This document shows positions 6,201-31,349 of a stretch of DNA of 64,000 bases, one piece after another. Position numbers and translations under genes: made by a program. The first letter of the stretch is position 1. Every line of letters begins with the position of its first letter. The DNA is taken from contig NZ_JAHSTY010000001.1 in NCBI RefSeq assembly GCF_019145355.1, positions 992,001 through 1,056,000 on the forward strand, in the 5' to 3' direction. Origin of the DNA: Pseudomonas azadiae. GTDB lineage: Bacteria > Pseudomonadota > Gammaproteobacteria > Pseudomonadales > Pseudomonadaceae. The notes under the pieces are model-generated. The model was not told the origin of the DNA and made no database searches. It worked only from the letters and a program-made list of their open reading frames with translations.

Positions 6201-9200
6201 GCCCGCCACCAGCGAGGTCTTGCCGCCGACGCCGGTGTTGCTGACCTCGGCGCCTTGCAGGTTGATGTTGTTGCCGGCCGTGGCAATCAGGTTCGCCGCC
6301 GGGGCCGACACGTACAGCCCGGCCACCCGCGACAACGCGGTGCGCGTGCCCTGGTCGCTCTGGCTGTCGGTGCTGATCGAACGCACATTCAGGTCGTTGC
6401 CGGCATTGACGGCCAGGCTGCTGTTGGCGCGGATAACACCACCGATGTTATTCACGTCCCGGCTGGCATTCAGGCTGACGTCGTTGCCCTGGATACGGCC
6501 ACCGAGGTTGTCGAGGTTCTGCACGCTGATGTTTACGCCATCGCGCCCGGACATACTGCCGGAGTTGACCAGGTCGCCGCGCACATCGAGGTTCAACGTG
6601 CGCCCGGCCATCAGTGCACCGGAACCGTCCACATCGCCTTCGCGAACCCGCACATACACCTGCGGCACCAGCACCTGGCGGACTTCGCCGCTGGCCAGGG
6701 TGACGTCCTTGGACACCAGCCACACGATGTCACTGGTCAGTTGGGCCATTTGCGCGGCGGTCAGTGCCACGCCCGGAATCAGCTTCCACTGATCGGCCAG
6801 GGTCACCGCACTGTCGATCATGCCGCGGTACTGCTCTTCGTCACTGGCGTAGCCGTCGACAAACCGGCGCCCGGTGAGTTGCGCCACTTGCTCGCGGATC
6901 AGCTTCTGTTCGTAGAAGCCGTCGCCCAGGCGTTGCTGGGTCGCCGCCGGGTCCAGGTTCAGGCGCTGCAGCATGTAGTCCGAAGACAGCCACTGGCGGT
7001 AATTGGCGAAGCGCGGGTCGGTCTCCACCAGGTAGCCGACGGTGCTCGTCGGGTGGGTGTGGAACAGGCTGCTGTCGGGCAGGTCCGGGTTAAAACCGCC
7101 GGTGCGGATCTGCTCCACACCGCTGGTGGCATTCTGCTGGGTCAGCGCCTGCACTTGGCTGATCGGCGTAACCGCGTAGGTTCGACCAACCCCCGACAGG
7201 TCGCCGGTGCCGGCGGTCTGATCGGTGACGTTGGCCAACACCAACGCACCGACCTGTGTCCCGCTGCCGTTGATCGCCGCGTACTCGGTGAACACGGTCG
7301 GGGTCAGCTTGATTTGTTGGATCAGCGGTGCCGGGGTGTAGGTAGTGACGCTGCGGCCCTGACGGTCGCGGCCTTTGCGCTGGATGCGATAGAAGTTGGT
7401 CAGGGTTCCGTTGTCGGTGGTGATGCGCTGGCCATCCACCTCGGTATTGGTCATGCTGCCGATGCTGCCGTTCAGGGCCTGCCCCGCGATGATCCGGCTC
7501 TTGTCGTTGATGACCTGATCGGCGATCAGGGTGAGGTTGCCACCGGCCAGCATCTGCGCAGGGTCAGACTGGGTGATCCGGGTTTCGGTGACTTCACGGG
7601 TGTAGTCGTAGCGGTTCCAGCGGTCCCTCACGCCTTCCGGCGTGACCAGATGCTGCACTTCGTCGTTATAGGTGGACACGTCGCCAGGCCCGTAGCGGTT
7701 GGTCGAGCCTGATAGCTGGAACTCCTGCAATACCCCGCGCGATACCACCGCCGTCTCGGTTGCAAAGTGCTCGTTGGTGTTGCGAATCACCCTGGCGTTG
7801 ACCCCCAGATTCCCCAGGGCCTCAACGGTGGCGCTCGCGTTGTTGAGTTCCTGCGCCTGGCCGACGGCGTTACCGTTGGCGTCCAGCGCGCTGCCGATCA
7901 CCAGATCGCCGGCACTGAAGATCAAGCCATGCTCGCGGTTGTTCACGTACTGACTGGCGATGTCCAGGCGGTTGCGCGCGGCAACCGTCGCAGCGGCCCC
8001 GCCTTCAAGGGTGTTGTTCAGCGTGGTGGCGGCGATGGACAGGTGATCGCCGTAGATACGTCCGGTGCCCAGGTTGTTCACGGTCGCGGCGTTGACCCGG
8101 GTGATTTCACCGTCGATCAAGCCACGGTTGTCGAGCTGCCCGCCCGCATTGACTTCCACCTGGCGCGCGCTGATAAGGCCGCTGCCGGTGTTGTCGAGGG
8201 TGTTGCTGTTCACGCGCAACAAGTTAGCGGCCTGGAAGGTGCCCTGGTTGGTCAGGCGCCCGCCGGTCTCGACGGTCAGGCCGCCGTTGGCCTGGAACAG
8301 GCCGCTGTTGACGAAGTCGCCGGCCAGCCGGAACGTCAGGTCGCCCAGGCTCAAGGCCCGGCCGCTACCACTGTAGTTGGCACTGTCCACGCGCAGCGCT
8401 TGCCCGGCGATCAGCGTGCCGCCTTCGTTGCTCACGGCCAGGGCTTTCTGCGCCAGATCGCGGTCGGCCACGGTCAGCAGAATGCCGGCGGAGACGACGC
8501 CCTGGGTGTTATCCAGGGTGCCGCGACCGGTGACGCTCATGACCGCATCGGAAACGATGGAGCCGACGCGGTTGGTGAGGTTATCGGCATCGAGGGTGAT
8601 GGACTGGCCCTTGATGCCCTGGTTGGCGCCCTGGGTCGAGCTATTGTCGACACTCCCGGCGGTGAGCAGCAGATGGCCGTCGGCCCGCAGCAGGCCGGCC
8701 TGGTTACTCACCGATTGTGCACCGACATCCAGGGCCTTGGCGCTGCCGATAAAGCCCTGGTCGTTGAGCAATTGCCCGGCGCGTACCGTGACCGTGTCCT
8801 GGCCAAGAATGCCGCCGTTGCTGCCCGAGTTGCGGTTGCTCAGCAACTGGCCGTGGGTGTCCAGCAACAGGCTCGACTTGGCCTGCACGATGCCGCCGTC
8901 ATTGAGCAGCACACCGCTGTCGACCGTCAGCGTGTCGCTGGCGTTGAGCGTGCCCCGGTTGTTATTCAACTGCTGACCGTGGGTGTCGATCAGCAATTGC
9001 GCGCCGGTAATCACGCCGCCCGTATTGCTCAGGCCCTGGACGTTGAGGGTCAGGGCCTTGGTGGACTCCAGGCGGCCGCCCGTGTTGTCCAACGGCTGGG
9101 TGCGGCTGGTCAGCAGCAGGTCGCCCGCGACCGAACCGAGGGTGCCGCCGTTGTTGAGGATGCTGTCCGCGTTGACCGTCAAGGTCCGGGCCGCCGCGAC

Positions 9201-25645: not shown

Positions 25646-27775
25646 TCAGCCGTTGGGCCCTACTGTCGCGACGATAGTCACTTGCTTATTGTCAGGAATT
25701 TCCTGATAAGCCAAAACGTGCAAATTCGGTACTGCCAGACGTCCAAATCGCGACAACATCGCGCGGACCGGACCGGCCACCAGCAAGATCACCGGTTGGC
25801 CCTGCATTTCCTGGCGCTGTGCGGCGTCGATCAACGAACGCTGCAGCTTCTCAGCCATGCTTGGCTCCAGCAAAACGCCTTCTTCCTGGCCTTGACCTGC
25901 CTTCTGAATACTATTGAGCAATATCTGTTCCAACCTGGGTTCCAAGGTGATCACAGGCAGCTCGGAGTCAAGCCCTACAATGCTTTGCACGATTGCACGC
26001 GACAATCCGACGCGCACCGCGGCCACCAGCGCGGCAGTATCTTGACTCTTGGCGGCATTGTTCGCGATGGCCTCGGCAATGCTGCGAATGTCGCGCACGG
26101 GCACCTGTTCGGCCAGCAGCGCCTGCAACACCTTGAGCAACTGCGACAGCGACAGCACGCCCGGCACCAGCTCCTCGGCGAGTTTTGGCGAGGCTTTGCC
26201 GAGCAAACCCATCAATTGCTGGACTTCCTCGTGGCCGATCAGCTCATGGGAGTGCTTGTACAGAATCTGGTTGAGGTGCGTGGCGACCACGGTGCTGGCA
26301 TCCACCACGGTGTAACCCAGGGACTGCGCCTGGCTGCGCTGGCTGATTTCGATCCACACCGCCTCCAGGCCAAAAGCCGGATCTTTGGCGGTGATGCCGT
26401 TGAGGCTGCCGAACACCTGCCCCGGGTTGATCGCCAGCTCGCGGTCCGGGTAAATCTCGGCCTCGGCCAGGATCACGCCCATCAGGGTCAAGCGGTAGGC
26501 GCTGGGCGCCAGGTCGAGGTTGTCGCGGATATGCACGGTGGGCATCAAAAAGCCCAGGTCCTGGGACAGCTTCTTGCGCACGCCCTTGATCCGCGCGAGC
26601 AATTGGCCGCCCTGGTTGCGGTCCACCAGCGGGATCAGGCGGTAACCGACTTCCAGGCCGATCATGTCGATCGGGGTCACGTCATCCCAGCCCAGCTCCT
26701 TGGTTTCCTGGGCGCGGGCCGGGGATGGCAGCAGCTCCTGCTGACGCGCGACTTCCTGCAGGGCCTGGACCTTCACGGCGTTCTGCTTCTTCCAGAACAG
26801 GTAGGCACCGCCACCGGCCAGGGCCGCCATGCTCAGGAACGACACGTGCGGCATGCCCGGCACGATGCCCATGATCGCCATGATGCCCGCCGCCACGGCC
26901 AGTGCCTTGGGCGAGGCGAACATCTGGCGGCTGATCTGCTTGCCCATGTCTTCGGAGCCCGAAGCACGGGTCACCATGATGGCCGCTGCTGTGGATAACA
27001 ACAGTGATGGCAATTGCGCCACTAAACCGTCACCGATGGTCAGCAAGGCGTACACCTTGCCCGCATCGCCGAAGGTCATGCCGTGCTGGAAGATACCGAC
27101 CGCGATGCCGCCGATGAGGTTGATGAACAGAATCAGCAGGCCGGCGATGGCGTCACCGCGCACGAACTTGCTGGCACCGTCCATGGAGCCGTAGAACTCG
27201 GCTTCCTGGGCCACTTCCAGGCGGCGCGACTTGGCCTGGTTCTGGTCGATCAGGCCGGCGTTGAGGTCGGCGTCGATGGCCATTTGTTTGCCGGGCATGG
27301 CGTCGAGGGTAAAACGCGCGCTCACCTCGGAAATCCGCCCGGCGCCCTTGGTCACCACCACGAAGTTGATGATCATCAGGATCGCGAACACCACGATACC
27401 GACCACGTAGTTGCCGCCGATCACCACCTCACCGAAGGCCTGGATCACCTTACCGGCGGCGGCGTGACCGTCCTGGCCGTGGAGCATCACCACGCGGGTG
27501 GAAGCCACGTTCAGCGCCAGGCGCAACAGGGTCGCCACCAGCAGAATCGTCGGGAATACCGCGAAATCCAGCGGCCGCAGGGCGTAGACGCACACCAGCA
27601 GCACCACGACGGACAGGGCGATGTTGAAGGTGAAGAACACGTCCAAAAGGAACGGCGGCATCGGCAACATCATCATTGCCAGCATCACCAGCAACAACAA
27701 CGGCACACCCAGATTGCCTCGGGAGAGGTCAGTCAGGGTGGTACGGGCCGTGCCGAACATTTGAGAGCGATCCAC
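25646..27775 (-). CDS. flhA: Flagellar export gate protein FlhA
   Basis: A 709-residue export gate. The N-terminal half contains about eight membrane helices (from LLLLVMLAMMMLPMPPFL) and the FHIPEP-family signature region with GRISEVSARFTLDAMPGKQ. The C-terminal cytoplasmic half binds chaperone-substrate complexes. Start: two consecutive GTG codons (27778 and 27775); the second gives the usual MDRSQ N-terminus, and GAGG lies 7-10 nt upstream. A sigma-54 promoter lies at 27840-27856. A 15-bp inverted repeat pairs the ribosome-binding site and start codon with 27868-27882. Confidence 0.95.
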   Translation of the reverse strand: MDRSQMFGTARTTLTDLSRGNLGVPLLLLVMLAMMMLPMPPFLLDVFFTFNIALSVVVLLVCVYALRPLDFAVFPTILLVATLLRLALNVASTRVVMLHGQDGHAAAGKVIQAFGEVVIGGNYVVGIVVFAILMIINFVVVTKGAGRISEVSARFTLDAMPGKQMAIDADLNAGLIDQNQAKSRRLEVAQEAEFYGSMDGASKFVRGDAIAGLLILFINLIGGIAVGIFQHGMTFGDAGKVYALLTIGDGLVAQLPSLLLSTAAAIMVTRASGSEDMGKQISRQMFASPKALAVAAGIMAIMGIVPGMPHVSFLSMAALAGGGAYLFWKKQNAVKVQALQEVARQQELLPSPARAQETKELGWDDVTPIDMIGLEVGYRLIPLVDRNQGGQLLARIKGVRKKLSQDLGFLMPTVHIRDNLDLAPSAYRLTLMGVILAEAEIYPDRELAINPGQVFGSLNGITAKDPAFGLEAVWIEISQRSQAQSLGYTVVDASTVVATHLNQILYKHSHELIGHEEVQQLMGLLGKASPKLAEELVPGVLSLSQLLKVLQALLAEQVPVRDIRSIAEAIANNAAKSQDTAALVAAVRVGLSRAIVQSIVGLDSELPVITLEPRLEQILLNSIQKAGQGQEEGVLLEPSMAEKLQRSLIDAAQRQEMQGQPVILLVAGPVRAMLSRFGRLAVPNLHVLAYQEIPDNKQVTIVATVGPNG

Positions 27776-27882
27776 CACCGGTATTCCTCGTTTCCTTGAA
27801 GCAAAGTTTTGACGCCGCGGGGCGTCCTGGAGGCGGTATTGCAAGAAGCCTTCCAACTTTTGCTCTAGAGGAATACCGGTGG
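27775..27882 (-). promoter_or_regulatory. Long-range inverted repeat covering the flhA ribosome-binding site
   Basis: The 15-mer GAGGAATACCGGTGG on the coding strand (27775-27789), which contains the flhA Shine-Dalgarno and the first GTG, has a perfect inverted copy at 27868-27882, separated by 78 nt. In a transcript containing both arms the start site would be locked in a 15-bp stem. The distal arm lies upstream of the sigma-54 promoter start point, so only longer (read-through) transcripts would carry it. Confidence 0.7.
27840..27856 (-). promoter_or_regulatory. Sigma-54 promoter of flhA
   Basis: The minus strand reads TTGGAAGGCTTCTTGCA, with GG and GC ten bases apart as required for -24/-12 promoters. 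The -12 half (CTTGCA) is a perfect match and the -24 half a moderate one. The predicted start near 27829 leaves a leader of about 54 nt. FleQ activation is expected from the known pseudomonad hierarchy. Confidence 0.7.
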
Positions 27883-27908: not shown

Positions 27909-28103
27909 CTACGCGCGTTTTAGATGCTGAATTTGACCGCCGGCTCCTATTTCGTAAGACACCTCATCACCCATTTTAAGATCGGTCAAACCAGCTTCTC
28001 GAAGGCCTTGTTCGTCGACGGTGATAACCCCACCGCCACTGCGCGGGGAGATAATTACAAAGCCATTGTTTGAATCGACCACGCTTACGGTTCCAGTTGC
28101 CAT
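27909..28103 (-). CDS. Divergent cold-shock-domain protein 1
   Basis: A 64-residue protein with the size and N-terminal pattern of a CspA protein (MATGTVSVVDSNNGFVIISP) and the C-terminal MGDEVSYEI segment typical of the last CSD strands. The nucleic-acid-binding aromatic residues are missing: the position of RNP1 (KGFGFI) reads NGFVII and that of RNP2 (VFVH) reads ITVD. It may therefore not bind RNA in the normal way. The start at 28103 has an AAGGAG site. It lies upstream of flhA on the same strand, with a conserved palindrome 95 bp upstream of its start. Confidence 0.8.
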   Translation of the reverse strand: MATGTVSVVDSNNGFVIISPRSGGGVITVDEQGLREAGLTDLKMGDEVSYEIGAGGQIQHLKRA

Positions 28104-28189
28104 GATGACTCTCCTTGGTTCACTTGCGTTACCGCACCCCGTGTGCGGCACCACTCCCTTAGTCAACCCTAGAAAATTTGAGCGGACTA

Positions 28190-28205
28190 CTGTCAACGTT
28201 GACAG
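28190..28205. promoter_or_regulatory. Palindromic operator-like site, copy 1
   Basis: A perfect 16-bp palindrome CTGTCAACGTTGACAG, centred 95 bp upstream of CSD gene 1. The conserved block extends to 20 bp (CTACTGTCAACGTTGACAGG, 28187-28206) and is shared with the copies at 29855 and 30166. Each half contains TTGACA, so it might also act as a -35 element. Confidence 0.85.
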
Positions 28206-28305
28206 GTCGAATGAAATTTCAGATAGGCGGTGATTGGCAGGACGGTAGTCTTCGCGGCTCCCTCCCACGTAGAACGTCCACGTTGCCGGCTATGGCGCGG
28301 CTCCA

Positions 28306-28600
28306 GTGTGGGAGATTGCTTGCCTGCGATAGCCGTGGGTATCTACACATCTTTGTAGTGAGCGGGCTTGTCCCGCGCTGGGTGGCGAAGCCGCCCCAAT
28401 AAGGGCACCGCAGTGTTCTGATAAAACCGAGTCGCCTGGTTTGGGGCGGCTTCGCCACCCAGCGCGGGGCGAGCCCGCTCACTACAGGGAGATTTGATAG
28501 CTTTTGAAAGTTGTGTAGATACCCATGCTGCGATAGCGGTGTATCAGTGACAGATGCATTAGCTGACCCAGCGCTATCGCAGGCAAGCCAGCTCCCACCT
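28306..28600. repeat. REPIN interrupted by nested palindromic elements
   Basis: This covers much of the gene-free stretch 28104-28930. Outer REP halves at 28306-28331 (TGTGGGAGATTGCTTGCCTG...) and 28575-28598 (...CAAGCCAGCTCCCAC) are inverted. Inside them lies a 13-bp inverted pair GGGTATCTACACA (28337-28349) / TGTGTAGATACCC (28512-28524), and inside that the larger palindromic element 28354-28486. The order suggests successive insertions into an older REPIN. Confidence 0.75.
28354..28486. repeat. Palindromic boundary element R1
   Basis: A 133-bp element with 46-bp inverted arms (28354-28399 and 28441-28486). The arms begin TGTAGTGAGCGGGCTTG and end GCGAAGCCGCCCCAA, or their complement. The same element recurs at 35732, 39807 and 45842. 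The central 41 bp differ between copies. It has no coding capacity of its own. Confidence 0.92.
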
Positions 28601-28689
28601 TTGGATTTGTGTATAGCCCAGTGCTGCCGAGGAAATTTCCGACAGCGTTTTGAGGTTGCCCCTAGGAAACTCGATCTCTAGTCTCCGTA

Positions 28690-28920
28690 CACCGCTGCAA
28701 ACGCAGTGGTCGGGCGTCGCGGCCCGGTTTGCTACGGAACAAAAGCACCCTCTGCCTTTCAGTAAGCGGTTTTTTATCGTCTACTGTGCGGCGCTATGGC
28801 GGCTGTGCGCGGGATACCTTCGGGTATGCCGGGTTGTTGTTCCTGGACCGGTCCGCGAACCTGCGTACAGCTGCCACCCTCCATCGCGTCGCGGCGATCA
28901 GTGGCAGCTCCACTTTCTAG
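28690..28920 (+). ncRNA. Candidate structured leader RNA upstream of the DUF3077-like gene
   Basis: The region before the gene at 28931 holds several strong hairpins in a row: 28691-28710 (8-bp stem, AAAC loop), 28811-28830 (stem closed by a C-UUCG-G tetraloop, one mismatch) and 28869-28909. The last has a 9-bp perfect outer stem AGCTGCCAC/GTGGCAGCT enclosing a second 5-bp stem ATCGC/GCGAT. It ends 9 nt before the AGGAA ribosome-binding site. This density of perfect stems without an ORF suggests a cis-acting RNA. No named family is claimed. Confidence 0.5.
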
Positions 28921-28930
28921 GAACTTCACA

Positions 28931-29200
28931 ATGATCAAACCCACCCCAAATCCCCCACTCGACGCCAACGACGCACCCGTCGTGCTATTGCGTGTAAAAG
29001 ACGGTATCCCCACCGAAGACCTGCTGGTCAACCTCACCGAAACACTGGCGTCAGCCCACGCCCTGACCTGCAACTTTGCCTTCGAACTGGACAGCTCGCG
29101 GCGCGAAGGCGCATTGGGTGTAGCGCAGTTGATTGAAGTGGCGCAGTTACTGGCCGAGCGGGTGCTGGAGGGCGTTGAGCCGTCGACTGCGACGGGCTAA
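28931..29200 (+). CDS. DUF3077/DUF6124-like small protein
   Basis: An 89-residue protein starting MIKPTPNPP, a start I associate with the DUF3077/DUF6124 family common in the P. fluorescens group. The core VKDGIPTEDLLVNLTETLASAHAL...LGVAQLIEVAQLLAERVLE is predicted helical and acidic. No enzymatic motif is visible and the function is unknown. It has an AGGAA site 7 nt before the ATG. It is one of only two complete plus-strand genes supported in the window and is preceded by a structured leader. It is bounded by REP-type elements on both sides and is likely a mobile or lineage-specific insertion among the flagellar genes. Confidence 0.75.
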   Translation: MIKPTPNPPLDANDAPVVLLRVKDGIPTEDLLVNLTETLASAHALTCNFAFELDSSRREGALGVAQLIEVAQLLAERVLEGVEPSTATG

Positions 29201-29212
29201 CCCCGATTCAAG

Positions 29213-29301
29213 TGTGGGAGCTGGCTTGCCTGCGATTGCGGTGCATCAGTAACAAATGCATTAGCTGACCCACCGCTATCGCAGGCAAGCCAGCTCCCAC
29301 A
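29213..29301. repeat. REPIN-type palindrome
   Basis: An 89-bp doublet with inverted 24-bp arms (29213-29236 TGTGGGAGCTGGCTTGCCTG... and 29278-29301). It lies between the 3' ends of the convergent DUF3077-like gene and the canonical cold-shock gene, where its hairpin could end or shield both transcripts. Confidence 0.92.
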
Positions 29302-29329
29302 GGTTGACCCTGTTCGCCTTGAGACCGGG

Positions 29330-29533
29330 TCAGGCATTACGCACGTTCTCGGCCTGCAGGCCTTTTGGGCCCTGAGCCGTGTCGTACTCGACTCTTTGCC
29401 CCTCTTCCAAACTTTTGAAACCAGAACCTTGGATGGCTGAATAGTGGACAAAAACATCCGCACTGCCGTCTTCGGGCTGAATAAACCCAAACCCTTTTTC
29501 CGCGTTAAACCACTTCACCATACCTGTCGCCAT
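29330..29533 (-). CDS. Canonical cold-shock protein (CspA family)
   Basis: A 67-residue CspA-type RNA/ssDNA-binding protein. RNP1 KGFGFI (about 14-19) and RNP2 VFVHYSAI (about 28-35) are intact, as is [10 protein letters not shown] at the end. The start at 29533 ([10 protein letters not shown]) has an AGGAG site; the frame extends 12 codons upstream inside the intergenic region. It lies 22 bp after divergent CSD gene 3 and may be co-transcribed with it, since it has no copy of the palindrome of its own. Confidence 0.95.
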
Positions 29534-29555
29534 GACCGTTCTCCTGCCGTCACTT

Positions 29556-29777
29556 TCAAAGATTTGCACGGGGCATGCGAATGAGTTTCAGACGAAACGC
29601 ATAGATGCCCTTGGGACCATGGATTCTGGAAAATTGAACCCGCTGGCCCTTTCTAAACCGCCGACCTGCCGAGCTCCTCAGGTCCACCAGTACCGGCTCC
29701 CGCCCACCGTCCAGTTCGATCAAACCTTCTCCGGTGGCGCGGCTATAAGAACTGATCGTGCCCATCACCACTTCCAT
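29556..29777 (-). CDS. Divergent cold-shock-domain protein 3
   Basis: A 73-residue protein related to Csp[18 protein letters not shown] aligns with the first two strands, VLVDLRS with RNP2, and [12 protein letters not shown] with the [10 protein letters not shown] end of the canonical neighbour. The aromatic RNA-binding residues are replaced (EGLIEL for FGFI, VLVDL for VFVHY), and the protein is Arg-rich. The start at 29777 has a GGGAGG site; ATG at 29765 is an alternative. A one-mismatch copy of the palindrome is centred 85 bp upstream. Confidence 0.78.
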
Positions 29778-29854
29778 GATCACCCTCCCGCATCTCTTGA
29801 CTACCCGCGCGCAGTATCTGGCGTTATGGAACCGCAAGCGTCTAACGCTGACTA

Positions 29855-29870
29855 CTGTCAAAGTTGACAG
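29855..29870. promoter_or_regulatory. Palindromic operator-like site, copy 2
   Basis: CTGTCAAAGTTGACAG, one base from the perfect palindrome, with the flanking CTA...G conserved (29852-29871). It lies 85 bp upstream of divergent CSD gene 3, which precedes the canonical csp gene. Confidence 0.8.
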
Positions 29871-29918
29871 GTAGAAGGGGTTTAAGACGAATGGCACGGT
29901 GGCAATCCACGGTTCACT

Positions 29919-30095
29919 TCATGCATCCGATGACTTTTTGCGCTTGCGGGGTTTTCGCGGTTTGGTTGGGGCTGGCGGGACGTCACTGCGTTGAGTGCCG
30001 GTAGACTGAACGGCAACCTCGTTGCCATCGCGATCCCGGGCGATAAAGCCGATGCCTTTGACCGCATCAAACCACCTGACCGTAGGCCTCTCCAT
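29919..30095 (-). CDS. Short cold-shock-like protein 4 with basic tail
   Basis: A 58-residue protein found by reading the minus strand. MERPTVRWFDAVKGIGFIAR matches the first CSD strands with an RNP1-like KGIGFI. The RNP2 position reads VAVQS and the rest of the domain is missing, being replaced by a Pro/Lys/Arg tail (PTKPRKPRKRKKSS). The start at 30095 has a GGGAGA site. A perfect palindrome copy is centred 78 bp upstream. It is probably a functional small gene rather than a relic, since ribosome-binding site and operator are kept, but it may be a truncated CSD. It lies between flhB and the other csp genes. Confidence 0.65.
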   Translation of the reverse strand: MERPTVRWFDAVKGIGFIARDRDGNEVAVQSTGTQRSDVPPAPTKPRKPRKRKKSSDA

Positions 30096-30165
30096 CACCG
30101 TCTCCCGAGCCGCGCAGGGCCGCGCGCCTCATCGCTCTATCAAACCGTGCAGGCGGCGTATTGGC

Positions 30166-30181
30166 TACTGTCAACGTTGAC
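30166..30181. promoter_or_regulatory. Palindromic operator-like site, copy 3
   Basis: A perfect CTGTCAACGTTGACAG with the same flanks (30163-30182), 78 bp upstream of the short CSD gene and 32 bp past the flhB stop. Confidence 0.85.
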
Positions 30182-30212
30182 AGGCAAACGCTCAATTACA
30201 GGAGCGCGACCG

Positions 30213-31349
30213 TCAGGAATCGCGACGCAAATCCGGCGGAATCGGCAGGTCCTTGAGCGGGTCCGGGCGCTTGCCCTTGCCCGCGCGGTATTGGCGGATC
30301 TGATAGACGTACGCCAACACCTGGGCCACGGCCAGGTAGAGCCCGGCGGGGATTTCCTGGTCAAGGTCGGTGGAGTAGAAAATCGAGCGCGCCAGCTCCG
30401 GCGACTCCAACAGCAGGATGTCGTTGGCCACGGCAATTTCGCGGATTTTCAACGCGGTAAAATCACTGCCCTTGGCCAGCAGCATCGGCGCGCCACCCTT
30501 CTCCGGGTCGTACTTGAGCGCTACGGCGTAGTGTGTCGGGTTGGTGATGACCACGTCGGCGTCGGGCACCGCCGCCATCATCTTGCGCTGGGACATTTCA
30601 CGCTGCAGCTGGCGAATACGCTGTTTGACCTCGGGCCGGCCTTCGGAATCCTTGTGTTCGTCGCGCACTTCCTGCTTGGTCATCAGCAGCTTTTTGTGGC
30701 TCTCCCACAACTGGATCGGCGCATCCACCGCCGCGATGATGATCAGCCCGGCGGCCATCCACAGCGCGCTCCAGCCCACCACCTGCACACTGTGGATGAT
30801 CGCCGATTCCAGCGGCTCATGGGCGATCAGCAGCAGGTCGTCGATGTCGGACGACAACACCACCAGCGCCACAAACAGGATCAGGATAAATTTGGCCAGG
30901 GCCTTGAGCAGCTCCACCAGGGCCTTGGCGGAGAACATGCGCTTGAGCCCGGCGCCGGGGTTCATGCGGCTGAATTTGGGCGCCATGCTGCCCGCGGCAA
31001 ACAGCCAGCCGCCGAGGGCGACCGGGCCGATCAGCGCGGCCAGCAGCAAGGTGATCAGAATCGGCTGCACCGCCAGCAGCGCGATCTTGCCAGAGTGCAG
31101 CAAGTACTGGCCCATGGCGTCAGGGTTGAGCAGCACTTCGCGGGGCAAGGCAAAGTTGTGCTTCATCAACTCCATCAAGTCCAGCGCCAGGCCGCCGCCG
31201 TAGATCAACAAGGCGCCGGCGCCGGCCATCATGGTGGCGACGGTATTGAGTTCCTTGGAGCGCGCAATCTCGCCCTTTTCCCTGGAATCCTTTTTGCGTT
31301 TCTCCGTGGGGTCTTCTGTCTTGTCCTGACCACTCTCGCTCTCGGCCAT
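30213..31349 (-). CDS. flhB: Flagellar export switch protein FlhB
   Basis: A 378-residue export component that switches substrate specificity with FliK. The basic N-terminus (DKTEDPTEKRKKDSREKGEIARSKE, in parts) is followed by four membrane helices (about 36-58, 90-115, 145-167, 187-209). The cytoplasmic domain has the autocleavage site NPTH at 270-273. It begins 3 bp after fliR and ends the fliLMNOPQR-flhB operon. Confidence 0.97.
   Translation of the reverse strand: MAESESGQDKTEDPTEKRKKDSREKGEIARSKELNTVATMMAGAGALLIYGGGLALDLMELMKHNFALPREVLLNPDAMGQYLLHSGKIALLAVQPILITLLLAALIGPVALGGWLFAAGSMAPKFSRMNPGAGLKRMFSAKALVELLKALAKFILILFVALVVLSSDIDDLLLIAHEPLESAIIHSVQVVGWSALWMAAGLIIIAAVDAPIQLWESHKKLLMTKQEVRDEHKDSEGRPEVKQRIRQLQREMSQRKMMAAVPDADVVITNPTHYAVALKYDPEKGGAPMLLAKGSDFTALKIREIAVANDILLLESPELARSIFYSTDLDQEIPAGLYLAVAQVLAYVYQIRQYRAGKGKRPDPLKDLPIPPDLRRDS

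Follow-up and report, generated by a model that had tools for sequence, protein, structure and literature searches.

What reads the palindrome that recurs among the small cold-shock-domain (CSD) genes of Pseudomonas azadiae, and is it peculiar to those genes? The window analyzed here is a stretch of 64,000 nucleotides of this genome (contig NZ_JAHSTY010000001.1, positions 992,001 to 1,056,000 of the forward strand), in which four CSD-type genes lie as minus-strand frames between flhB and flhA, just where a first-pass annotation made from the letters of the stretch had placed them. That annotation described a 16-bp palindrome, CTGTCAACGTTGACAG, upstream of these genes and proposed a regulon dedicated to them. 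We find that the palindrome belongs to a wider Pseudomonas operator set whose other targets mostly fall outside the Pfam families. Its sequence and position make it very probably a LuxR-type (lux-type) activator box, a candidate operator of a recurrent regulon that includes the CSD cluster, and the reader of this box is probably the candidate regulator PpoR, a LuxR solo.

The palindrome in the window, the genome and the genus

Two exact copies of the palindrome and one with a single mismatch precede the CSD genes (Table 1), in agreement with the three-fold occurrence noted at first pass. The distances of 95, 85 and 78 bp given then from box centre to gene were recovered on recount (94.5 nucleotides for csd1, 85.5 for csd3 and 77.5-80.5 for csd4), as were the positions 28190 and 29855; the third copy begins at 30168, two bases from the 30166 first reported, which may have been the start of a 20-bp block. 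Scanned with up to three mismatches, the window contains four matches, compared with a mean of 0.29 and a maximum of 2 in 100 shuffled windows, none of which reached four. The only match besides the three CSD boxes is a site with three mismatches at 9163. The claim that nothing else carries the palindrome holds for the window only, because the genome of about 6.1 Mb has 15 sites within two mismatches, as opposed to one for a control in which the same pattern was read backwards.

With exact halves, the pattern CTGTCAANNTTGACAG occurs six times in this genome, where 0.02 occurrences would be expected at equal base use. These six are the three CSD boxes and three unlinked sites: one precedes a 943-amino acid frame adjoining a frame that by eye resembles a non-ribosomal peptide synthetase, one has a VRP1-domain gene downstream (Pfam E 6.1e-38), and one falls among clustered small frames, unannotated, at C1:2.446 Mb. 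Of 36 genomes from the genus, P. azadiae included, 10 contain the same pattern, versus none of 21 genomes that belong to other families of the order. A survey of 149 Pseudomonas genomes found it in 44 (the reversed control in 3); with 249 further genomes added, the counts rose to 120 and 6 of 398.

Genes following the box in the fetched loci encode CSD proteins, large proteins, proteins that by our own reading are autotransporter-like or SET-like, small proteins, and LuxR proteins consisting of a helix-turn-helix (HTH) domain only; a LuxR-type HTH gene itself has an upstream box in two genomes (L031 and L067). A Pfam scan of 14 targets, four of which are truncated where the locus ends, gave three matches at E<=0.01, namely VRP1 (L019), GerE (L031, plus a second match below cut-off) and a peptidase below cut-off (L029). 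As boxes in P. azadiae and its relatives also precede unrelated genes, a regulon dedicated to CSD genes is not borne out.

The VRP1-domain (Tc-toxin-A-like) gene at L019:5550-9101 (+), 1183 amino acids long, has an upstream box with TAGATT 23 nucleotides past it. L021 (C1:2437500-2457400) is a second cluster, with small unannotated genes and three sites one or two mismatches from the query; some of its frames are CsrA-like by eye, and Pfam gives no family for the one scanned.

Conservation was also seen at the CSD locus itself. Matches to csd3 at E<=7e-7 came from 13 of the 149 genomes, P. azadiae among them, and each of the 13 carries a box somewhere in the genome; eight further genomes gave weaker matches (E 2e-5 to 9e-5), and only two of these, G073 and G031, are box genomes. 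Among 19 stretches picked for having a csd3 hit or a box, 17 (P. azadiae and 16 other genomes) contain both flhB and flhA, and between these two genes lie a box and CSD genes, the box of G142 containing one mismatch. The stretches of G060 and G146 have no flhB or flhA within them; a Csp gene follows the box there. For CSD frames flagged directly downstream, the box starts 84-92 nucleotides from the frame start in 11 cases, and 56 and 97 nucleotides from the called start in two others. Recent duplication of the boxes without conservation in relatives, which the first-pass annotation had raised as a possible explanation, is disfavored because the three window promoters differ outside the box: their downstream 60 bases share 21-24 identical positions without gaps and 34-35 matches with gaps. 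With CSD boxes also present between flhB and flhA in 16 other genomes, this candidate explanation was rejected. In the library searched, none of six box strings (spellings, 14-mers and consensus) occurs in any paper, and papers joining flhB, cold shock and LuxR in Pseudomonas contained, judged by title, nothing on this regulon.

Promoter geometry and type of the box

The 97 different exact sites comprised 81 that were oriented and used, 14 that were kept as later sites, and two (L030 and L173) that were dropped as unclear. Orientation was non-blind, the nearest plausible downstream frame being taken after the flanks had been seen. A -10-like hexamer, T[AT]NNNT, is present at offset 23 in 33 of the 81 oriented sites and at offset 24 in 11 (42 in union, as two overlap), and on the opposite side in 4. 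The highest count at any offset from 10 to 44 in 2000 shuffles, which preserve base composition only, was 10. Many of the 81 sites are related promoters; once recurring promoter families had been removed according to our own list, the hexamer was present in 21 of 43 sites. At each of the three window sites the hexamer is confined to the coding strand, and conserved flanks extend beyond the fixed core, [A][A/C] before it and T[A/T]G after it. This fixed geometry supports the palindrome as a real operator.

Lux boxes are two-fold symmetric sites of 16-20 bp that end in CTG...CAG and have the dyad form CT-N12-AG. The palindrome shares this symmetry, size and these ends. With the hexamer taken as a -10 element at -12 to -7, the peak at offset 23 would put the box centre at about -43.5, near the position described in part of PMC7585371, where the lux box is a 20-nucleotide site centred 42.5 nucleotides upstream of the start. 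The likeness to lux- and las-type boxes covers the CT-N12-AG dyad, a centre at about -43, a -10-like element and the absence of a properly spaced -35, whereas the half-site here is CTGTCAA and the targets are unlinked and mostly family-less.

Two other readings of the site were weighed on the same features. The right half of the box reads TTGACA towards the gene and could be a plain strong -35, with the palindrome an overlying repressor site or chance. The usual spacing between -35 and -10 is 16-18 nucleotides, however, and the TTGACA is too far away for a normal -35 because 24 nucleotides separate it from the -10-like hexamer; the flanks on either side of the core are conserved too. We rejected this reading on the distance, and consider it very improbable. 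Even more improbable is use of the palindromes by FleQ or a different flagellar regulator, with the CSD genes serving as accessories of the flagellum. The position between flhB and flhA and the GTCAA/TTGAC halves, a resemblance to FleQ half-sites already remarked at first pass, are in keeping with it, as are the FleQ peaks from chromatin immunoprecipitation at flhA in P. fluorescens F113 reported in a passage of PMC6120874. The FleQ consensus in passages of PMC6120874 and PMC8125075, GTCaNTAAAtTGAC, shares GTCA/TGAC halves with the box but holds them 2 bp further apart than GTCAANNTTGAC does here, and none of the window palindromes has the FleQ spacing. The other targets examined are non-flagellar genes, and the distribution over 120 Pseudomonas genomes differs as well. 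FleQ was rejected on spacing, distribution and targets; the LuxR family fits better.

PpoR and other candidate readers

In the genome of P. azadiae, 27 matches to GerE reach E<=0.001, and two proteins contain an autoinducer-binding domain. One LuxR protein (C1:2040097-2040804) has the Autoind_bind domain and GerE HTH of a LuxR solo and is flanked by fpr-like and rRNA-methyltransferase-like (rlmG) genes, the context given for ppoR in a passage of PMC10134790 and for subgroup A solos in one of PMC8546723. We equate PpoR with subgroup A because this gene context is shared, despite a mention of PpoR in the subgroup C text of Bez et al. (2021; PMC8546723, in part). Of the 103 PpoR loci, 93 were extracted, and both neighbors were present in 91 of these. 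The candidate resembles PpoR (Subramoni et al. 2009; PMC2703642) and the subgroup A solos (Bez et al.) in its domains and gene context. What sets it apart is the box and the unlinked targets that we propose; the term "lux box" is absent from PMC2703642.

PpoR-type hits (E<=1e-20) and the box are distributed together. Such hits were found in 103 of 149 genomes, among them all 44 box genomes, and none of the 46 genomes without a hit has a box. In the 249 further genomes, where seven first-look candidates were scored per genome so that some PpoR may be missed, 74 of 76 box genomes have a hit; among the 70 genomes lacking one, 2 have a box, which is about the control rate (6/398). Over all 398 genomes the box is present in 118 of 282 with a hit versus 2 of 116 without; these counts, like those for the HTH-only LuxR and for the helix residue below, ignore phylogeny. 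Passages of PMC2703642, PMC8546723, PMC10134790 and PMC11543582 report binding of N-acyl-homoserine lactones (AHLs) and changes in expression, and give no box for PpoR. The abstract of a pplR mutant paper lists flagella-dependent motility among the changed functions, and in a passage of Bez et al. (PMC8546723) the subgroup A protein Ppu16R showed no dependent promoter activity at its neighbors.

The residue before TV in the recognition helix was compared in 89 of 93 PpoRs, two disrupted and two non-syntenic sequences being excluded. PpoRs from box genomes have R there in 40 cases and S in 1; those from no-box genomes have R in 28 and S in 20. This association was set aside as support, as it looks clade-like and is broken by one genome, G105.

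Several observations weigh against a lux-type box read by PpoR. At the promoters, 39 of 81 oriented sites have no hexamer at offset 23 or 24, and the 14 later sites have it on a clear coding side in 6, with direction unclear in 2, on the other side in 3 and on neither in 3. Among genomes with a PpoR-type hit, 164 of 282 have no exact box, and two box genomes, G203 (100% complete) and G244 (73% complete), have no hit. The ppoR gene has an in-frame TGA in box genomes G111 (L135) and G095 (L229) and, among the matches listed, in G207; it is split over two frames at the right locus in G109 (L305), and only partial matches, among those listed, were found in box genomes G284 and G379. G105 has eight boxes yet an S-type helix. 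No site with two or fewer mismatches lies within the 93 PpoR loci. The PF00765 (LuxI) profile gave no match in the P. azadiae genome, but control genomes were equally silent, so that a luxI gene may yet be present. A PpoR overexpression microarray lists other genes in the passages of PMC2703642, and "cold shock" is absent from the main text of the pplR mutant paper. Finally, the co-distribution of PpoR and the box may reflect nothing more than phylogeny.

A TGA in ppoR was likewise seen, among the matches listed, in the no-box genome G211. The disruptions in G109, G111 and G095, where boxes are retained, may be sequencing errors or real losses. Autoregulation through the box was rejected, with no site within two mismatches at the 93 PpoR loci and a best of three mismatches at the 30 loci from the search for HTH-only LuxR.

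That HTH-only LuxR is itself a rival reader: GerE-like and without a ligand domain, it would be constitutive or controlled by its own level. The protein has 112 amino acids, and the P. azadiae copy (C1:916839-917138) sits in a locus of DUF3509, luxR and a major facilitator superfamily (MFS) gene, followed by what by eye is an aroC-like frame. At E<=6e-22, a cut-off picked after the list was seen, hits occur in 28 of 149 genomes, and the box is present in 25 of these versus 19 of the 121 others (Fisher 1.7e-13). The HTH is conserved over a divergent N-terminus, of the 28 fetched loci 27 contain DUF3509 and 22 an MFS gene, every one of the 13 good csd3 hits comes from a genome having this protein, and the boxed LuxR genes of L031 and L067 are other HTH-only LuxR genes. 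Nevertheless, 19 box genomes have no hit at the cut-off, including G105 (8 sites) and G074 (4), three genomes (G116, G080 and G091) have the protein but no box, and no site within two mismatches lies near its gene in 30 loci; we regard it as unlikely to be the sole reader. In G077 and G147, where the box is absent, the LuxR frame at the DUF3509 locus is longer, with 264 and 244 open codons, a difference suggesting that one lineage has lost the ligand domain. The HTH-only LuxR at L153:6837-7175 (-) is near DUF3509 and MFS genes. The protein may nonetheless act at the same box as a second reader that has no ligand. A version in which both proteins use it, the ligand-free one competing with or replacing the AHL-responsive one, draws on the GerE domain in both and on the fact that the 28 genomes whose PpoR is closest include 27 of the 28 HTH-only genomes. 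This co-distribution may be due to phylogeny alone, however, and the recognition helices differ, and we hold shared use to be less likely still.

The cold-shock-domain cluster and the proposed regulon

The positions of the genes, boxes and predicted hexamers in the window are collected in Table 1. Only csp2 is a canonical member of the CspA/CspE family, with a full CSD (PF00313) at 110.1 bits (E 4.8e-32), above the Pfam cut-off of 27; csd1, csd3 and csd4 (20.1 bits) are divergent and all below it, and differ from that family also in that their promoters carry the lux-type box. Database matches numbered five for csd1 and nine for csd3, those named by their source being called cold-shock or cold shock CspA family proteins.

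Table 1. Genes, lux-type boxes and -10-like hexamers of the CSD cluster, in window coordinates
Feature	Position	Strand	Remarks
flhB	30213..31349	-	upstream neighbor
lux-type box 3, CTGTCAACGTTGACAG	30168..30183	-	upstream of csd4; exact match
hexamer TTTGAT	30139..30144	-	-10-like, 23 nucleotides past box 3; predicted from sequence
csd4	29919..30098	-	short CSD-like protein with basic tail, 58-59 amino acids depending on start codon
lux-type box 2, CTGTCAACTTTGACAG on coding strand	29855..29870	-	upstream of csd3-csp2; one mismatch
hexamer TTCCAT	29826..29831	-	-10-like, 23 nucleotides past box 2; predicted from sequence
csd3	29556..29777	-	divergent CSD protein, 73 amino acids; CSD 21.5 bits, under cut-off
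csp2	29330..29533	-	canonical Csp (CspE-like), 67 amino acids; 22 nucleotides downstream of csd3
lux-type box 1, CTGTCAACGTTGACAG	28190..28205	-	upstream of csd1; exact match
hexamer TTGACT	28161..28166	-	-10-like, 23 nucleotides past box 1, coding strand; predicted from sequence
csd1	27909..28103	-	divergent CSD protein, 64 amino acids; CSD 21 bits, E 3e-4, under cut-off
flhA	25646..27778	-	downstream neighbor; start codon uncertain

Other elements lie among these genes. A C4 antisense RNA (Rfam RF01695, 75.2 bits) is located at 28792-28881 (+) inside the cluster, with a DUF6124 gene (28932-29200, +) directly downstream of it, and a leader that by eye resembles this RNA stands beside box sites in L021 and L302. 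Between the CSD genes are stretches rich in inverted repeats (28320-28500, 28540-28610 and 29205-29310) that by eye are like repetitive extragenic palindromic elements.

In the mechanism we propose, a dimeric LuxR-family activator would bind CTGTCAANNTTGACAG just upstream of a sigma70 promoter without a properly spaced -35 and, from a box centred at about -43.5, would recruit RNA polymerase, so that its predicted effect is activation rather than repression. It would turn on the three CSD promoters between flhB and flhA as well as the unlinked genes. The reader would be PpoR, encoded at the fpr-luxR-rlmG locus, and expression would follow AHLs produced by neighbors, a response proposed because the PpoR of P. 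putida binds 3-oxo-C6-homoserine lactone. As a whole, this explanation of a lux-type box read by PpoR is the one that we favor on balance, if narrowly.

More speculatively, and with real doubt, PpoR may run an eavesdropping regulon across much of Pseudomonas, in which the AHLs of neighbors would activate divergent CSD proteins and mostly family-less proteins, the ligand-free HTH-only LuxR being a competitor or bypass at these boxes in one group of genomes. The targets of such an orphan LuxR receptor are so far poorly known, and the box of fixed geometry and the list of target promoters make the question testable. LuxR-type control would thereby be linked with divergent cold-shock-domain proteins and with numerous proteins that belong to no known family.

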